A DNA stretch of 64,000 nucleotides from Rhodospirillaceae bacterium (lineage in GTDB: Bacteria > Pseudomonadota > Alphaproteobacteria > Rhodospirillales > JABHCV01): contig JABJHA010000014.1 of the NCBI GenBank assembly GCA_018662005.1, forward strand, positions 1-64,000, in the 5' to 3' direction. The notes below the pieces were generated by a model. The model saw only the letters and a list, made by a program, of their open reading frames with translations. It had not been told where the DNA came from and searched no databases. The position numbers and the translations under genes are program-made. Within the stretch, counting starts at the first letter, position 1, and each line of letters opens with the position of its first letter. This document shows positions 581-7,802 of the stretch, one piece after another.

Positions 581-1177
581 CTACAGCTTACCCAGACTGG
601 CGACAAACCGCGAGTAGATTTCAGTTAACGCCTTGTTCATGGCGATGACGGCGTCGCCGACACTTGCCGACTGGGCGCCGACTTCGACCCGGTAGTTGGC
701 AAGGTGGATAATTTCACCGTTCTGCTCGTCCTGAAGCCCCAGTTGCAGTTCGGCAATGGCGCTGGGTTTGGGGCCGACGATTTTTTCCAGACGTTTAATT
801 TTAGCAGTCAGGCGGTAGTCAGGGCGGGAGCGCATTTCAGGCGAGACAATCATATCGGAAACCTTGGCGGCGCGCAGAAAATCAATCAACTGATCACGCA
901 GCATGACCACCGGCGGCTCGGTCCAGAAATGATAGTGGTATTCCAGTAATTGATGTTCGCTGCCGGCCTCGGAATAAACGATGGGCCGACCGGCGGTCAG
1001 GCCATCGGCAAGGAAACGCTCAACCTCGATGGTGCCTTTGAAAAGGGGTTCATTCATGGCTTTATCCGGCCCCTGGACCTGCAGGCGGTAATAGTGGTCC
1101 TTGGGCAGTTCAGGTTGTGCGCAAGCGGCCAGTGAGACAACCGAAACCAGGGCCAGACTCCTAAAGATTTTTTTCAT
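581..1177 (-). CDS. Mla/Mce-associated ABC transporter auxiliary lipoprotein
   Basis: A predicted lipoprotein of 198 residues with a short signal peptide and a lipobox ending at Cys19 (Leu-Ala-Ala-Cys), so it should be lipid-anchored facing the periplasm. The size and the conserved DHYYRLQV stretch after the lipobox fit the ABC-type transport auxiliary lipoprotein family, which includes PqiC-like partners of MCE transporters. It is the last gene of the minus-strand run MlaE-MlaF-MlaD and starts 14 bp after the mlaD stop. I infer that it acts as the outer-membrane or periplasmic partner of the MlaD hexamer, taking the place of a separate MlaA/MlaC, which are not encoded here. Confidence 0.82.
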   Translation of the reverse strand: MKKIFRSLALVSVVSLAACAQPELPKDHYYRLQVQGPDKAMNEPLFKGTIEVERFLADGLTAGRPIVYSEAGSEHQLLEYHYHFWTEPPVVMLRDQLIDFLRAAKVSDMIVSPEMRSRPDYRLTAKIKRLEKIVGPKPSAIAELQLGLQDEQNGEIIHLANYRVEVGAQSASVGDAVIAMNKALTEIYSRFVASLGKL

Positions 1178-1191
1178 CCCTCATCGCCTTT

Positions 1192-2190
1192 TTATTTGGG
1201 TTTCGCTTCATCACGCGGCGGTGTGCCACCAAGCAGCAATCCCGGATTAAGCCTAATCTGCCGACTGAATTCGTACATGTTGCGCGACGTCGCTTCCATA
1301 TTCTGATTGAGCGCATCGATATGGCGGGCCAATGCGCCGGTAACGTAACGGACATCAACGACAGACGCGTCGATATTGGACTTGTTGTCAGTAACGACGC
1401 TGTTGAGATCCTTGATCAGGCCGTCAAGATTGCCTGACAAATCGGTGAAGTTAGCGGCCGCCGTATCCATATTTTCGATCAGACTTTCGATCTGCTTGCG
1501 ATTTTTCTCGGTTAGCAGGGTGCTCAACTCCTTGGTGCTGTCATTAATACGGGTGGTAATCTGTTCAATGTCGCCAGCAATTCTGGGGATGCGATCACCC
1601 AACTCGCCGGTCAAATCAACCAGGTCCGATACGAGAATGCTGCCATCGCCAGCCAGAATTTCACCGAAACTATCTGAGGTTTTGGTAATCGATTCAAGCA
1701 GCGGGCTGATGTTGTTAAGCAACGGCCGAATATCTTTTTCAGCCAACATACTTATTTGGTCGGCGACGGATGAAACCACGGCGAAAACATTGGCCGCTTC
1801 CAGACCGCTTACCTGTGAGGACGGCTCCAGCATCTTCTCGCTTTTGCCGGCGTTCAGGCTCAAAGTGATCGCCGAAAGCAATCCGGGGGCAGCGATTTTG
1901 GCGACGCTGTCTTCGGGAATGCGCCAGCCTTCAACGACTGTAAAGTCGACGCGGAAGCTCATTTTCGAGCCTTCGGCGACCGGGGTTACTTCCTCGACCT
2001 GGCCAATGGGAAAACCTTCATACAATACCTGGGTGCCGAACTTGACGCCGGTGACGTTTCGGTAGACGGCAAAATATTTATCGGTCGCCCCGGTTCGCCC
2101 GGTCAACATGGCGATCGAAAAAATCAGGCCGAAAATCATCGCCAATACGAAGCTGCCGACGATCACATAGTTCAGTTTGTTATTTCTCAT
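1192..2190 (-). CDS. mlaD: MlaD-family MCE-domain lipid-binding protein
   Basis: A 332-residue protein with one N-terminal membrane anchor (about residues 8-30), an MCE domain (about 38-115, with the typical G-x-x-V-x-Y-x-G-x-x-x-G-x-V pattern), and a long predicted helical/coiled region to about residue 315. It should form the periplasmic substrate-binding ring of an MCE lipid transporter. It is longer than E. coli MlaD (about 180 residues), so the C-terminal helices may form a tube or reach the auxiliary lipoprotein encoded next. Its ATG overlaps the mlaF stop by four bases (ATGA), indicating translational coupling. Confidence 0.9.
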   Translation of the reverse strand: MRNNKLNYVIVGSFVLAMIFGLIFSIAMLTGRTGATDKYFAVYRNVTGVKFGTQVLYEGFPIGQVEEVTPVAEGSKMSFRVDFTVVEGWRIPEDSVAKIAAPGLLSAITLSLNAGKSEKMLEPSSQVSGLEAANVFAVVSSVADQISMLAEKDIRPLLNNISPLLESITKTSDSFGEILAGDGSILVSDLVDLTGELGDRIPRIAGDIEQITTRINDSTKELSTLLTEKNRKQIESLIENMDTAAANFTDLSGNLDGLIKDLNSVVTDNKSNIDASVVDVRYVTGALARHIDALNQNMEATSRNMYEFSRQIRLNPGLLLGGTPPRDEAKPK

Positions 2191-3011
2191 AAGGTCGCGT
2201 CTCCCCCTTTTTCTTCTTCACCGGTGAGACGACGCAGATATTCGTCCGGATCAATGTTATCGTCTTCGGGACGGCGGTTGAGAAGGTTTTGAATGCGCTC
2301 GCTCTTATTGTTGCGCAGTTCGTCGACCGTACCAATAAAAAGAATGTGACCGCGATCAAGCACCGTCACCCTGTCGGCGATTTTAAAAACGCTTTCCAGT
2401 TCATGGGTGACGACGACGACGGTCATTTGCAAAGCGTCGCGGAGCTTCAGGATCAAATCATCCAGGGCAGACGCAACAACCGGGTCCAGCCCTGCCGAAG
2501 GCTCGTCACAGAACAACAGCTTAGGATCCATGATGACGGCCCTGGCAAAGGCGGCCCGTTTGATCATGCCGCCAGACAGTTCGGCCGGCATGAGGTCTTC
2601 AAAACCCGCCAGGTCAACGACTTCCAGTTTCATACGGGCCATAATTTCCATGGTTAGCATGTCAAGATTGGCGTGCTCGTAAAGCGGCAGCATGATGTTC
2701 TCGCCAACCGTCATCGAACTGAACAATGCGCCGCCCTGAAAGGCGACGCCGATTTTCTTGCGCAGATCAAACATTTCCTGCTGGTTGGCCGAACCGATAT
2801 CCTGACCGAGCAAGCTGATCGTGCCAGAGGTTTGCTTTTCAAGGGCCATCATGAACCTGAGCAAGGTGCTCTTTCCCGAACCACTGCCGCCCATGATGAC
2901 CATAATCTCGCCTTCGGCGACGTTCATGGAGACACCGTCAAGAATTTTGCGGGTTCCGTAATGGGTGACCAGGTCTTCAACTTCGATAACGGTGTTGGGT
3001 TCAGTGCTCAT
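2187..3011 (-). CDS. mlaF: MlaF-type ABC transporter ATP-binding protein
   Basis: The ATPase of an MCE phospholipid transporter, 274 residues. Visible motifs are Walker A (GGSGSGKST, about residues 41-49), a Q-loop, the signature LSGGM, Walker B followed by DEPSAGLDP, and the H-loop histidine in VVTHEL. In this family the ATPase pairs with the MlaE permease and can bind a STAS protein (MlaB), and both are encoded just upstream. It is three bases from the mlaE stop and overlaps mlaD by four bases, so the genes are co-transcribed. The acidic C-terminal tail after about residue 245 is typical of alphaproteobacterial members. Confidence 0.93.
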   Translation of the reverse strand: MSTEPNTVIEVEDLVTHYGTRKILDGVSMNVAEGEIMVIMGGSGSGKSTLLRFMMALEKQTSGTISLLGQDIGSANQQEMFDLRKKIGVAFQGGALFSSMTVGENIMLPLYEHANLDMLTMEIMARMKLEVVDLAGFEDLMPAELSGGMIKRAAFARAVIMDPKLLFCDEPSAGLDPVVASALDDLILKLRDALQMTVVVVTHELESVFKIADRVTVLDRGHILFIGTVDELRNNKSERIQNLLNRRPEDDNIDPDEYLRRLTGEEEKGGDATL

Positions 3012-3014
3012 CCT

Positions 3015-3830
3015 TTACCTCGTCGCCATGAATGCAAACAGCATATCGGTAATGATGATTGCCGATATAGCCTGAACAACGGCCCGTGTCGTTACCTTGC
3101 CGACACCTTCCGCACCACCGGTTACCGATGCGCCGTTAATGACCCCGATAAGCGCTATCAGAATGGCGAACAGGACGCTTTTGCCAACCCCGTGCAGGAC
3201 ATCACCCACAGCAAGGATATTGATCACCTGGTCAAAATAGGCGGCAAGTGAAATGCCTAAGTCGGCATTGATGTAAAGCCCGGCGCACAACATACCGACG
3301 ATCATATTCAGAATGGTCAAGGCAGGCACCATAACGATCATGCCAAGAAGCGCCGGCACCACCAGGAAGCGTACCGGATTGATCCCCATCACCTTCAGGG
3401 CATCTATTTCCTGGGATATTTTCATCGTCCCCAGCCTGGCGGCAAGGGCTGAACCGGACCGGCCAGCAACCAGAATGCCGGTGATCAGCGGCGCGAATTC
3501 ACGGACAACTGAAAAGGCGACACCGTACGTCACCTGTGATTCAGCCCCGAAGATGCGCAACATGTAAATGCTCTGCATGGCCATCATGGCACCGATGGTT
3601 CCGGCCATCATGGCGATCAGGGGGATTGCCTTGATGCCGATTTCCATCATTTGCATTACGACCGCGCCGAAACGCACCGGTTGTTTAAGGCGCGGACCGA
3701 CGAACAGCCAGTAGATGCTTTCAAGCAACAAAAATCCGCCGTTACCGATTTCCTCGACGCCGACGACTGTCTGGCGACCGATACTCTCGGTATACCCAAG
3801 TGCTCCTTCTTTGGCGTTCTTCAAGCTCAT
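3015..3830 (-). CDS. mlaE: MlaE-family ABC transporter permease
   Basis: A 271-residue inner-membrane permease of the MlaE (DUF140) family, with five or so membrane helices and the family signature around GRSGSALAARLGTM and EIDALKVMG (about residues 123-147), the coupling region facing MlaF. The N-terminal amphipathic stretch contains the GNGGFLLLES segment seen in this family. It lies three bases downstream of the STAS gene and three bases upstream of mlaF. It should be the membrane core of a lipid transporter that works with MlaF in the cytoplasm and MlaD in the periplasm. Confidence 0.92.
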   Translation of the reverse strand: MSLKNAKEGALGYTESIGRQTVVGVEEIGNGGFLLLESIYWLFVGPRLKQPVRFGAVVMQMMEIGIKAIPLIAMMAGTIGAMMAMQSIYMLRIFGAESQVTYGVAFSVVREFAPLITGILVAGRSGSALAARLGTMKISQEIDALKVMGINPVRFLVVPALLGMIVMVPALTILNMIVGMLCAGLYINADLGISLAAYFDQVINILAVGDVLHGVGKSVLFAILIALIGVINGASVTGGAEGVGKVTTRAVVQAISAIIITDMLFAFMATR

Positions 3831-3833
3831 AAT

Positions 3834-4163
3834 TTAAAGACTGGCCAGCCCTTCATCGATGGTGCCGCAGATTGTAAAGACCTTGTCCAGTCGGGCCAGT
3901 TCCAGCACCCTGAGCGCCGCTTCGCTGACCGACACCAGCAACAAATTTCCACCGCCCTTGCGTGCCGTTTGCAGGGATTCAACCAACGAAGCAATACCCG
4001 AACTGTCGATGTAGTTGACCTTTGACAAATCAACCAGAACCGGCATATTTCGGGCCACGCATTCAAGAAGGATTTTTCGGGCATCAGGGGAGGATTGCAA
4101 ATCCACATCGCCTGAAAAACCGACAATAAGGGCGCCATCTTGTTCGGTTACTTCATGTTCCAT
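3834..4163 (-). CDS. STAS-domain protein, MlaB/anti-anti-sigma type
   Basis: A single-domain STAS protein of 109 residues. The loop Y-I-D-S-S-G (Ser54, Ser55) matches the phosphorylated motif of SpoIIAA/RsbV-type anti-sigma antagonists. In the canonical Mla system the STAS protein MlaB binds and supports MlaF, and the position directly before mlaE fits that role. The gene also sits 17 bp after the stop of a PP2C phosphatase with a fused kinase-like ATPase domain. I infer that this STAS protein is both an Mla subunit and a substrate for reversible serine phosphorylation. An alternative is a general stress-type antagonist with no direct contact to the transporter. Confidence 0.85.
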   Translation of the reverse strand: MEHEVTEQDGALIVGFSGDVDLQSSPDARKILLECVARNMPVLVDLSKVNYIDSSGIASLVESLQTARKGGGNLLLVSVSEAALRVLELARLDKVFTICGTIDEGLASL

Positions 4164-4180
4164 TTTGGTTTCTCAATTCG

Positions 4181-5941
4181 TTACTCAATTCGTTTCACCA
4201 TTCTCAGTATATTTCCATCGCCTTCCGGAGGGGGTAAAAAATCAACCTCATCCATGATTTCACGAATGAAATGGGTGCCCAGGCCGCCGGGCTTTATATC
4301 ATCGAGCGCACGGGGCTTGATCTTGTCAACGTCCACAGGGTCTGCAAAATCCCTGAGAGACAGGACAATGCTATCGCCATCACGGCTGATATCAAGAACG
4401 ATTTTGCCATCGGGCGAGCCCTTATAGGCATGACGGATAACATTCTGACACGCCTCATCAACAGCAATGACGATATCGCGGGCGACAGTTTCAGAACATC
4501 CGCACATCTTCGCCGTATCGAAGACGGCGCTGCGCACCAGTTTCAGACGGTCGGGTTGGGAGGGAAAATTGACATGGAATATATTTTCCGGCGCCGCCTC
4601 GTCCTGATCGTTCTCCTGTTCAGGGCGTTCGGCTTTGTTCAGGCCATCATCAATGGCCAGCAATGTCAGATCATCACGCAAGGCAACATTTTCCCGGTAT
4701 ATGCAGTCGATCACCGTCTGCAACCGCGCCATTACAGGGTCGGCTGCCTTATCAACGAGAATTTTCATCAAGCCTTCGGACTCAAGTTCGCTGCCATCTT
4801 CCAGATAACCTTCGGTGACGCCATCAGTAAATATGTAAAGAGTTCCGCCATTCAGATTGAATTCAATCTCCGGAATGCCATCATCGCCTGACAACAACGG
4901 TGAAATTCCCAGCGGCGGGGCTTCCGCCTGAATGGCTTCAAAAGAGCCATCACCTGAATAAAACAGTGGCGGTTCATGCCCGGCATTGGCCAGTTTGACG
5001 ATACCGGTTTTTGGATCATAAATACCACCGGCCATCGTGACAAACATGCCGCGGGTTACGGTCTCGCAGATTTCATCATTGATCATCGACAACAAACGCC
5101 CAGGCTGATGAATGGTTTTACCAAGGCACCGAAACAGGCTGGCTGTCTTGGCCATCAGCAAAGCGGCGTTCATACCCTTGCCCGAAACATCGCCCAGATT
5201 GAAGCAGATACGCCCGTCATCAAGCGGGAAGAAATCATAGAAATCACCTGAGACTGTCCGCGCCGGGCAATTGACGCCGTGGATCGGTGAACTTTCATCA
5301 CCGGCATCGGGCAGGAGACCACGCTGAATTTCCGCCGCCAGTTCAAGTTCCCGGCGCACCCTTTCCTGCTCGACCAGGGCTTCGGCCATGCGAGCATTCT
5401 TTGTCGCCAGTGCCGCCGACGAAGACAGCGAACGCAGCAGATGTAAGTCATGTTCATCAAACAGGCCGTCACCGGAGCGTTTGTTGACCAGTTCAATGGC
5501 GCCGATGCGCTCTTCCTTGACGCTCATTGGGGCGCACATAATGGATCGGGTGGTAAAGCCGGTTTGGGCGTCTACAGAATTTTGAAAGTTGGGATCAGTG
5601 GATACATCGCGGACGATTTCCCCGACATCAAGCTGAACACAACGCCCGACGATGCCTTCATCACTGTTCAGGGTCAGGCCGGTGATTTCGGTTTCCCCGA
5701 CACACGCCGTACAGGTCAGTTTTTCACCTTTTTCATCAAGCAGGAAAAGAGCGCCACCTTCGGCGCCGACATAATCGGTGATCCGCTCCAGTCCATGGCG
5801 CAGGGTTTCATCAATATCAAGCGAGGTGGCAAAATCCTGCCCCATGGTGGAGAGCAATTCCAGATGGCCGGAAATCCTCTCTTCATAGATGCTGATGGTG
5901 CTCGACGGGGCTGTCGCTTTTTCCATGGCGATACTATGCAT
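4181..5941 (-). CDS. GAF - SpoIIE-type PP2C phosphatase - RsbW-type HATPase fusion
   Basis: A 586-residue cytoplasmic regulator with three domains: GAF (about 35-185), a SpoIIE/PP2C serine phosphatase (about 222-432) with metal-binding aspartates in GDFYD (Asp233), GDVSGKG (Asp251), FTDG (Asp373) and DDLT (Asp424), and a GHKL ATPase (about 455-586) with N-box DEACQNVIRHAY (Asn500) and a glycine-rich lid (PGGLGTHF). All metal and ATP motifs look intact, so one protein could both phosphorylate and dephosphorylate a STAS partner. Its next gene is exactly such a STAS protein, followed by MlaEFD. The GAF domain would supply a small-molecule or redox input. A start at the ATG at 5926 is also possible; neither start has a strong ribosome site. 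Confidence 0.88.
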   Translation of the reverse strand: MHSIAMEKATAPSSTISIYEERISGHLELLSTMGQDFATSLDIDETLRHGLERITDYVGAEGGALFLLDEKGEKLTCTACVGETEITGLTLNSDEGIVGRCVQLDVGEIVRDVSTDPNFQNSVDAQTGFTTRSIMCAPMSVKEERIGAIELVNKRSGDGLFDEHDLHLLRSLSSSAALATKNARMAEALVEQERVRRELELAAEIQRGLLPDAGDESSPIHGVNCPARTVSGDFYDFFPLDDGRICFNLGDVSGKGMNAALLMAKTASLFRCLGKTIHQPGRLLSMINDEICETVTRGMFVTMAGGIYDPKTGIVKLANAGHEPPLFYSGDGSFEAIQAEAPPLGISPLLSGDDGIPEIEFNLNGGTLYIFTDGVTEGYLEDGSELESEGLMKILVDKAADPVMARLQTVIDCIYRENVALRDDLTLLAIDDGLNKAERPEQENDQDEAAPENIFHVNFPSQPDRLKLVRSAVFDTAKMCGCSETVARDIVIAVDEACQNVIRHAYKGSPDGKIVLDISRDGDSIVLSLRDFADPVDVDKIKPRALDDIKPGGLGTHFIREIMDEVDFLPPPEGDGNILRMVKRIE

Positions 5942-5999: not shown

Positions 6000-7802
6000 T
6001 TATTCCTTCAACCGCACCTTGACGTATGACCCCGGCGCATCTTCCAGTGGCTTCAATTTTCCGGCACCCGGTTTTCTCGCAGTAACATCCTTGGCCCCGG
6101 CATGTTTTTTCAGCCACTTATCCCAATCCGGCCACCAGGAGCCTTCCTGCCGCTTTGCCCCCTCAAACCAGGCATCGGCGGCTTTTGGCATTTTGCTATT
6201 GGTCCAGTAACAATATTTTTCCTTAACCGGCGGATTGACGACGCCGGCGATATGGCCAGAGGCCGACAGGACAAAGCGTTTGGACCCACTATATAAATCT
6301 GTAGCGCTGTATGTGGATTGCCACGGTGCGATATGATCGTCGCGGGTCGACAGGATATATGTCGGGATTTTTATTTTACCGAGATCAATTGGCACCCCTG
6401 CCAATGATATGGCCCCGGGTTCAACCAGTTTGTTTTCCAGATACATGTTGCGTAGGTAAAAGCTGTGCATCATCACCGGCATTCGGGTTGAATCCGAATT
6501 CCAGTAAAGCAAATCAAACGGCAAGGGCCTGCGGCCCATCAGGTAATTGTTGACGATGAACGACCAGATCAGGTCGTTATCGCGCATCATATTGAACACC
6601 GTCGACATGTGAGAGCCTTCGAGATAGCCCTTTTTATTCATGTGCTCTTCCATCAGGTTGATTTGCTCATCATCAATGAACACACCCAATTCACCGGGAT
6701 CGGCGAAATCAACCATGGTGGTTAGGAACGTCGCCGATTTGATCCGGTTATCTTTTTTGGCGGCCATATAGGCAAGCGTGCAGGCCGTTAATGTACCGCC
6801 GATGCAGTAACCGACAATATTGGCCTTTTTCTCGCCCGTCGCCTTTTGCATGGCGTCAAGGGCAGCAAGCGGGCCTTCGAGCATGTAATCGTCAAAGGAT
6901 TTGCCAGCCAGCTTGCCATCGGGGTTTACCCAGGAAATAACAAACACGGTATTGCCCTGATCAACCGCCCATTTGATAAACGAATTCTTCGGCTGTAAAT
7001 CGAGGACATAAAACTTGTTAATCCAGGGTGGCACCACCAGCAACGGCGTCGCGCGAACCTTCTTCGTCGTCGGCGCGTATTGAATGAGTTGCATCAGTTC
7101 ATTTTCAAAAACCACCTTGCCCGGTGAGGTCGCGACGTTTTCTCCCAGGGTAAAGGCGTCTTCGTCGGTCATGGAAATACGCAAGCGCCCTTTGCCTTTT
7201 TCCAGGTCACCGAGCAGGTTTTCCATGCCATCAAGCAAATTTTCACCACCACTTTCCGCCGTCTTGCGAAGCACCACCGGGTTGGTGGCGACAAAGTTAC
7301 TGGGCGACAAGGCATCGACCCACTGGCGGGTGTAGAAGCGAACCTTTTCAGCGGTTTTCGGATCAAGACCCTCGACGTCGCCAACCGTTTGCTGCATCCA
7401 ATCGGACGTCAACAGATAGGATTGCTTGATAAAATCGAAAACCACTTGATCGTTCCAGGCCCCATCCTTAAAGCGCCGGTCGCCACTTTCGGGTTCGACG
7501 ACAGCCTCTGCCTCTTCCCCGCTCATGCGCTTGGCCGTGGTCTGCCATAATTCAGCGTAGTTGTTCCACAATTTGGCCTGGGTCTCAGCCAGCTTCTGCG
7601 GATCGGCCATTAACTGCTGGGCAAGCTCCATGAAAGCCTTGGAGACAACGACCGGATCAGGGACCTGATAGCCATCACCTGATTCTTGCTGTTTGATGAA
7701 AGACTCGGCGATGCGCTGTCCGCGTTCGGCAAAATCCTGCATGGCCCGGGACAATTTCTCAGGGTCTATGGAGGGTTGTTCTTTTTCGACTTTTGTATCC
7801 AT
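6000..7802 (-). CDS. phaC: Class I poly(3-hydroxyalkanoate) synthase PhaC
   Basis: Polymerises 3-hydroxyacyl-CoA into polyhydroxyalkanoate storage granules. The 600-residue length is typical of class I enzymes. The N-terminal PhaC domain is followed by an alpha/beta hydrolase core whose lipase-like box G-Y-C-I-G-G gives nucleophile Cys333, with Asp488 (in STRDD) and His517 (in SGHIAG) completing the triad. No phaA, phaB, phasin or phaR gene is next to it. It is 58 bp upstream of the phosphatase/STAS/Mla run on the same strand, so partial co-transcription is possible. A promoter candidate lies at 7912-7939. Confidence 0.95.
   Translation of the reverse strand: MDTKVEKEQPSIDPEKLSRAMQDFAERGQRIAESFIKQQESGDGYQVPDPVVVSKAFMELAQQLMADPQKLAETQAKLWNNYAELWQTTAKRMSGEEAEAVVEPESGDRRFKDGAWNDQVVFDFIKQSYLLTSDWMQQTVGDVEGLDPKTAEKVRFYTRQWVDALSPSNFVATNPVVLRKTAESGGENLLDGMENLLGDLEKGKGRLRISMTDEDAFTLGENVATSPGKVVFENELMQLIQYAPTTKKVRATPLLVVPPWINKFYVLDLQPKNSFIKWAVDQGNTVFVISWVNPDGKLAGKSFDDYMLEGPLAALDAMQKATGEKKANIVGYCIGGTLTACTLAYMAAKKDNRIKSATFLTTMVDFADPGELGVFIDDEQINLMEEHMNKKGYLEGSHMSTVFNMMRDNDLIWSFIVNNYLMGRRPLPFDLLYWNSDSTRMPVMMHSFYLRNMYLENKLVEPGAISLAGVPIDLGKIKIPTYILSTRDDHIAPWQSTYSATDLYSGSKRFVLSASGHIAGVVNPPVKEKYCYWTNSKMPKAADAWFEGAKRQEGSWWPDWDKWLKKHAGAKDVTARKPGAGKLKPLEDAPGSYVKVRLKE

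Follow-up and report, generated by a model that had tools for sequence, protein, structure and literature searches.

The window analysed here comprises 64,000 nucleotides of contig JABJHA010000014.1 from a Rhodospirillaceae bacterium of the order Rhodospirillales (assembly GCA_018662005.1). Between positions 5941 and 581, on the reverse strand, it carries a run of six genes that places a predicted partner-switching enzyme and its putative substrate directly ahead of an MCE-family transporter of the MlaE type. The first gene (4181..5941) encodes a fusion protein of 586 residues of the RsbU-RsbW type, in which a GAF domain (GAF_2, residues 41-179) precedes a PP2C phosphatase domain (SpoIIE, residues 241-430, 6e-37) and a HATPase kinase domain (HATPase_c_2, residues 459-583, 1.5e-27), all bounds being those of Pfam. 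It is followed by an RsbV-like STAS protein of 109 residues (3834..4163; Pfam STAS 1.4e-19) with Ser54 in a DSSG motif, a putative MlaB-like subunit. The transporter genes themselves encode an MlaE-type permease of 271 residues (3015..3830; Pfam MlaE 1.2e-64), an MlaF-type ATPase of 274 residues (2187..3011) whose ABC_tran domain is followed by the C-terminal extension DPDEYLRRL, an MlaD/MCE protein of 332 residues with a long C-terminal part (1192..2190; Pfam MlaD 7e-9, Mtu_fam_mce 1.5e-20), and a PqiC-like auxiliary lipoprotein of 198 residues (581..1177; Pfam ABC_trans_aux 2.4e-12) bearing a Leu-Ala-Ala-Cys lipobox near its N-terminus. The intergenic gaps from the enzyme to the lipoprotein are 17, 3, 3, -4 and 14 bases. 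An initial annotation of the window had described these six genes in tight order, and all of them were recovered where it had placed them.

The same annotation had listed four metal-binding aspartates of the phosphatase domain (Asp233, Asp251, Asp373 and Asp424) and a kinase-type N-box residue (Asn500), and alignment confirmed each of these. Across the order, all 39 sequences compared retain three of the aspartates, and all 38 that align at the fourth retain that one as well. The kinase domain has a GHKL-type ATP site, and the Glu and Asn of its N-box are kept in 40 of 40. The enzyme also has Glu496 at the catalytic-base position of SpoIIAB-type kinases. Ahead of the PP2C domain, an RsbU-type linker motif is present in 106 of 124 sequences; such linkers relay sensor signals to PP2C domains (PMC12143880). 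In the STAS protein, the DSSG motif that had been singled out for its Ser54/Ser55 pair starts at Asp53 and is found in 126 of 126 homologues, a single deviating motif in the count being an artefact of the search pattern. In the alignment, Ser54 occupies the place of the RsbV phosphoserine and of Thr52 in Escherichia coli MlaB, the numbering for this comparison being taken from the literature. Had the serine varied where the phosphatase is present, the initial proposal would have been refuted; it is invariant. Two loci carry two consecutive STAS genes between the kinase gene and mlaE, both with DSSG (L216:9646-10400 and L219:6321-7039).

The transporter had been labelled Mla, a name that holds for the MlaE family and fails for the canonical system. 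The permease scores 218 bits against Pfam MlaE (cut-off 22.5) and falls narrowly under the cut-off of TIGR00056 (201.9 versus 212.2). MlaF (199.6 versus 441 bits) and MlaD (54 versus 135 bits) are both under the NCBIfam cut-offs of the canonical Mla equivalogs, the STAS protein is under that of mlaB_1 (23.6 versus 90 bits), and within the operon, between 581 and 5941, there is no mlaC. Because of these scores and the missing mlaC, we do not regard the system as canonical Mla; by gene content and profile score it is an Mpc-like MCE transporter, nearer to Brucella Mpc than to canonical Mla. In the part of the published account of Brucella Mpc considered here (mpcEFDA; PMC12436622), the gene order is likewise E, F, a long D (331 residues versus 332 here) and a PqiC-like lipoprotein, without MlaC. 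The two systems differ in that the STAS domain of Mpc is fused to MpcE, whereas the permease in the window holds the MlaE domain alone and the STAS protein is a separate gene; that part of the account also makes no mention of a partner-switching enzyme. E. coli MlaFEDB resembles the operon in its MlaE, its tailed MlaF and a STAS protein with Ser or Thr at the same position, for which phosphorylation has been hypothesised (PMC7367683, PMC5016091). However, it includes MlaC and a short MlaD, has no known kinase or phosphatase, and encodes MlaB last and without the RsbV-like C-terminus.

To survey the association of enzyme and transporter, 60 genomes of the order, including the source genome, were tallied by hand, with the enzyme located by protein search and MlaE by Pfam profile. 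MlaE scores formed two groups, one of approximately 243-280 bits, representing the canonical paralogue, and one of approximately 216-233 bits, which is the group adjoining the enzyme and is here termed switch-linked. The switch-linked MlaE is the sole MlaE of the source genome (a single genome match). The enzyme and this MlaE occurred together in 42 genomes and were both absent from 15, whereas two genomes had the enzyme without that MlaE and one had that MlaE without the phosphatase, the kinase being retained; the losses were joint and spread across several families. In a wider set of 337 genomes of the class, all eight other strong matches to the switch-linked MlaE had the enzyme on the same contig. 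Nearly all relatives with this mla operon therefore possess the phosphatase, the reverse of the pattern that had been named as one that would refute the proposal. Phosphatase and kinase are two separate adjacent genes in several genomes of the order, and so their fusion is not essential. One relative (G007, L100:5838-6626) has lost the adjacent GAF-PP2C phosphatase and kept the kinase, the STAS protein and the transporter.

A scan of named genomes yielded 80 loci in Rhodospirillales, including Terasakiella, Paramagnetospirillum, Magnetospirillum and Dongia, in Gammaproteobacteria (Solimonas, Halorhodospira, Ectothiorhodospiraceae and Sulfuriflexus) and in a few deltaproteobacterial bins. The adjacency of phosphatase, STAS and mlaE, which we had been advised to survey across alphaproteobacteria, thus repeats among them and beyond. 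Kinase, STAS, MlaE and MlaF occur together at approximately 112 loci, with both the set and its order conserved, which exceeds what chance would produce. The permease is present in 118 of approximately 122 loci with kinase and STAS, a count that takes in metagenome bins, near relatives and the same locus twice, and hence does not equal 118 independent events, and that includes L108/L222 solely on account of an mlaE remnant. Among the four kinase-STAS loci without a permease, one lies at a contig end, L107 and L203 belong to genomes without this permease, and in L214 the module is unlinked. An isolated MlaF of the switch-linked type was found at L271.

A natural exchange of permeases, the strongest of the new lines of evidence, indicates which of these components travel together. 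In Ectothiorhodospiraceae-like gammaproteobacteria (L165, L172, L180, L181 and L218), the enzyme and STAS genes are followed by an E. coli-type mlaE, a short mlaD, mlaA and mlaC; mlaF lies on the other strand in those contigs long enough to include it, and no mlaB is found in these enzyme-STAS operons. The permeases of these loci have a mean identity of 45% to canonical gammaproteobacterial MlaE versus 32% to switch-linked MlaE, whereas their MlaF is 62% identical to switch-linked MlaF and 40% to canonical gammaproteobacterial MlaF. The same genomes also carry a separate canonical mla operon, which has its own MlaB where the downstream part was read. At L274:6515-11127, kinase, STAS, mlaF, mlaE, mlaD, mlaC and then a PP2C gene form one run; mlaB is missing, and the PP2C phosphatase, which is of a different class, sits in its usual place. 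One Thiotrichaceae genome has the module at a site unlinked to mla, yet the MlaF has the same tail as the switch-linked type (see below), groups with it and has no mlaB beside it, and the STAS protein of the module is the only stand-alone one found. On the simplest interpretation, enzyme, STAS and MlaF constitute one regulatory unit that has become associated with different permeases, and the movement of such a unit as a whole is what a contact between STAS and MlaF predicts. The exchange is read from identities and profile scores rather than from trees, in which deep long branches allow small rearrangements. A profile scan did not bear out an N-terminal STAS domain on the canonical MlaE of alphaproteobacteria in this order.

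The C-terminal tail of MlaF provides a candidate site for this contact. Switch-linked MlaF proteins carry the tail motif [YH]LxR[LM] in 99 of 114 cases, most of the others deviating by one or two residues or being cut by the contig end, while MlaF of L279 lacks the tail and canonical alphaproteobacterial MlaFs are without it. The tail (YLxRL) resembles the region of Tyr261 and Leu265 in E. coli MlaF, residues that pack on MlaB (PMC7367683), and together with the permease exchange it adds support for the predicted STAS-MlaF contact. For the other predicted partner, we modelled a kinase-linker-STAS chain from Dongia mobilis (L217), read through a single stop codon. The model had a mean predicted local distance difference test score (pLDDT) of 90 and a predicted template modelling score (pTM) of 0.83, with approximately 45 disordered residues, and its two halves match SpoIIAB and RsbV/RsbW structures (1th8, 6m36). 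Judged by pTM, it suggests a confident relative placement of kinase and STAS.

In E. coli, MlaB is required for MlaF to join MlaE (PMC7367683, PMC5016091). Thr52 of MlaB lies in the middle of the interface and its replacement by Glu weakens MlaF binding (PMC7367683), while a Thr52Ala variant still assembles and has no ATPase activity (PMC5016091). Phosphorylation of MlaB was proposed in 2016 and in 2020, with the kinase unnamed (PMC5016091, PMC7367683). We propose that the most likely role of the STAS protein of the window is that of an MlaB-like subunit whose phosphorylation gates the transporter. In its unphosphorylated form it would dock on MlaF, held in part by the MlaF tail, and thereby let the complex assemble and hydrolyse ATP. 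Phosphorylation of Ser54 by the HATPase domain, at what is predicted to be the centre of the docking face, would expel the STAS protein and stop the transporter. A signal perceived by the GAF domain would then be relayed by the linker helix, prompting the PP2C domain to remove the phosphate and restart transport of the presumed lipid cargo.

An MCE-family lipid transporter whose STAS subunit doubles as a partner-switching substrate, with phosphorylation gating transport, is in our view the best explanation of these data and a probable one. It is also reasonably probable that a full partner-switching circuit gates the transporter ATPase and that the enzyme-STAS-MlaF unit has combined with two or more lineages of permease in Alpha- and Gammaproteobacteria. 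The initial annotation, which had a single bifunctional enzyme gate transport through an MlaB-like STAS protein, is supported in part: co-occurrence, the invariant serine, the permease exchange and the tail speak for it, while phosphorylation and binding are steps that we infer.

Several observations weigh against this explanation. The STAS protein resembles RsbV more than MlaB, passing the anti-sigma factor antagonist model TIGR00377 (ant_ant_sig; 81.1 versus 53.5 bits) and staying under the MlaB equivalog cut-off. Canonical MlaBs without a known kinase, for example those of gammaproteobacterial genomes, also have Ser or Thr at the phosphosite, and because of this the serine alone proves little and was rejected as proof of regulation; it is necessary and not diagnostic. 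Enzyme and STAS persist in three genomes that lack this transporter (L107, L108/L222 and Magnetospirillum molischianum L203). At L108:3953-6751 (the same locus as L222), only a short piece of mlaE is left and mlaF and mlaD have disappeared, with enzyme and STAS intact. Given these three genomes, the module may act on something else or be in decay. Conversely, L272 has the transporter without an adjacent STAS or kinase gene, diverged kinase-STAS and phosphatase-STAS pairs lying elsewhere in that genome. The source genome encodes an orphan STAS protein (G000:C28:27040-27330; L035:1489-1815) that contains the motif ELIDSSGIASL, has neither a kinase nor a phosphatase as neighbour and might serve the enzyme as a second substrate. 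Together with the three transporter-less genomes, it leaves some probability to the third refuting condition of the initial annotation, action of the enzyme on a different STAS protein. Approximately unbiased tests do not reject trees that place the gammaproteobacterial MlaF or MlaE otherwise (p 0.34 and 0.12, respectively). Of the two kinds of complex that had been put forward for modelling, STAS with HATPase gave the confident model described above, whereas a read-through chain of STAS, MlaE and MlaF (L161) reached a pTM of 0.49, a low confidence, and was not used.

Some of these observations would suit a conventional partner switch whose target, be it a sigma factor or something else, lies elsewhere in the genome, the mla genes being merely co-transcribed. 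Such a switch could account for a STAS protein that scores as an anti-sigma factor antagonist, for the transporter-less genomes, for the orphan STAS protein and for the unlinked module of some Thiotrichaceae-like genomes. However, across 121 loci (1.49 Mb) no sigma factor of the FliA/SigB type adjoins the module, the few matches lying kilobases away on the other strand, which leaves room for a transcriptional output elsewhere in the genome. The joint loss of module and transporter in many families also argues against this alternative, as does the co-travel with MlaF despite a differing permease and with no mlaB there, which co-transcription would not predict, and we consider it unlikely. The sign of the switch could also be the opposite, with phospho-STAS as the active form, the kinase domain switching transport on and the phosphatase switching it off. 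The inactivity of the assembled MlaB Thr52Ala complex implies that the side chain matters for catalysis (PMC5016091), a binding event in Bordetella is reported to be favoured when the STAS protein BtrV is phosphorylated (PMC8256260), and L100 retains kinase and transporter without an adjacent phosphatase. Nevertheless, Thr52Glu, a change at the centre of the interface, lowers MlaF binding (PMC7367683), and the unphosphorylated form is the active one in SpoIIAA, RsbV and SypA (PMC10120452), making an inverted switch improbable.

If the STAS protein were instead a constitutive structural subunit, the enzyme might simply sequester it through the HATPase domain, with phosphorylation playing a minor role. 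Proteins of the SpoIIAB type form tight complexes with their STAS partners, and the model of the kinase-STAS chain is a confident one, but the N-box Glu and Asn of the kinase and all four aspartates of the phosphatase are invariant and would be needless for pure sequestration, so we hold this to be very unlikely. Least probable of all is a reversed flow of information, in which the transporter acts as the sensor of lipid state and the STAS protein, whether free or bound, relays this to an output of the kinase-phosphatase. The retention of the module in genomes without the transporter would fit such an arrangement, and the SypA-SypE pair illustrates that the direction can depart from the Bacillus order (PMC10120452); against it, no conserved output gene was seen beside the module, and the GAF domain is an input of the enzyme's own.

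The preferred explanation, in which phosphorylation of the STAS subunit gates the transporter, draws on components with known relatives. In Bacillus, RsbU/RsbW/RsbV and SpoIIE/SpoIIAB/SpoIIAA comprise the same three enzyme and substrate families with the same serine position, but as separate proteins with a sigma factor as output. A kinase and phosphatase in one chain has precedents in Rv1364c and SypE (PMC10120452). SypE of Vibrio fischeri likewise unites a serine kinase with a PP2C domain acting on a STAS protein, SypA, that is itself the downstream effector (PMC10120452, PMC8256260). It differs in its kinase-REC-phosphatase order and phosphotransfer input, and SypA, which has no known target, controls biofilm formation; the enzyme described here has both kinase and phosphatase and, by Pfam, a GAF domain and no REC domain. 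This GAF domain shows similarity to those of the PDE5 type. Rv1364c of Mycobacterium tuberculosis (3KE6) has PP2C (RsbU) followed by an RsbW kinase in one chain and a sequence match over residues 229-525. Unlike the enzyme in the window, it has a PAS input and a fused STAS domain (PMC12143880), and it is classed with general stress response phosphatases without a link to a transporter.

Each part is thus known, and the combination is new to the literature searched: in agreement with the initial annotation, we found no description of a circuit of enzyme, STAS and MlaF or transporter there, most subscription papers and all preprints lying outside that search. For the question of MlaB phosphorylation raised in 2016 and 2020 (PMC5016091, PMC7367683), the operon supplies a candidate kinase, phosphatase and substrate, and cultured carriers such as Terasakiella pusilla, Paramagnetospirillum caucaseum and Dongia mobilis make it directly testable. 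If the proposed circuit is correct, partner switching, otherwise known mainly from the control of transcription, would extend to acting directly on a lipid transporter of the envelope, and lipid traffic at the outer membrane would gain a signal-dependent handle.

Apart from the enzyme, the source genome has a single SpoIIE-type phosphatase, an RssB-like REC-PP2C response regulator (G000:C35:8919-9650, L032). Upstream of the enzyme gene, at a distance of 58 bases and on the same strand, lies a class I polyhydroxyalkanoate synthase gene, phaC (6000-7802), which occupies the same upstream position in several relatives, such as L075, L076, L078, L111, L149, L152 and L159.

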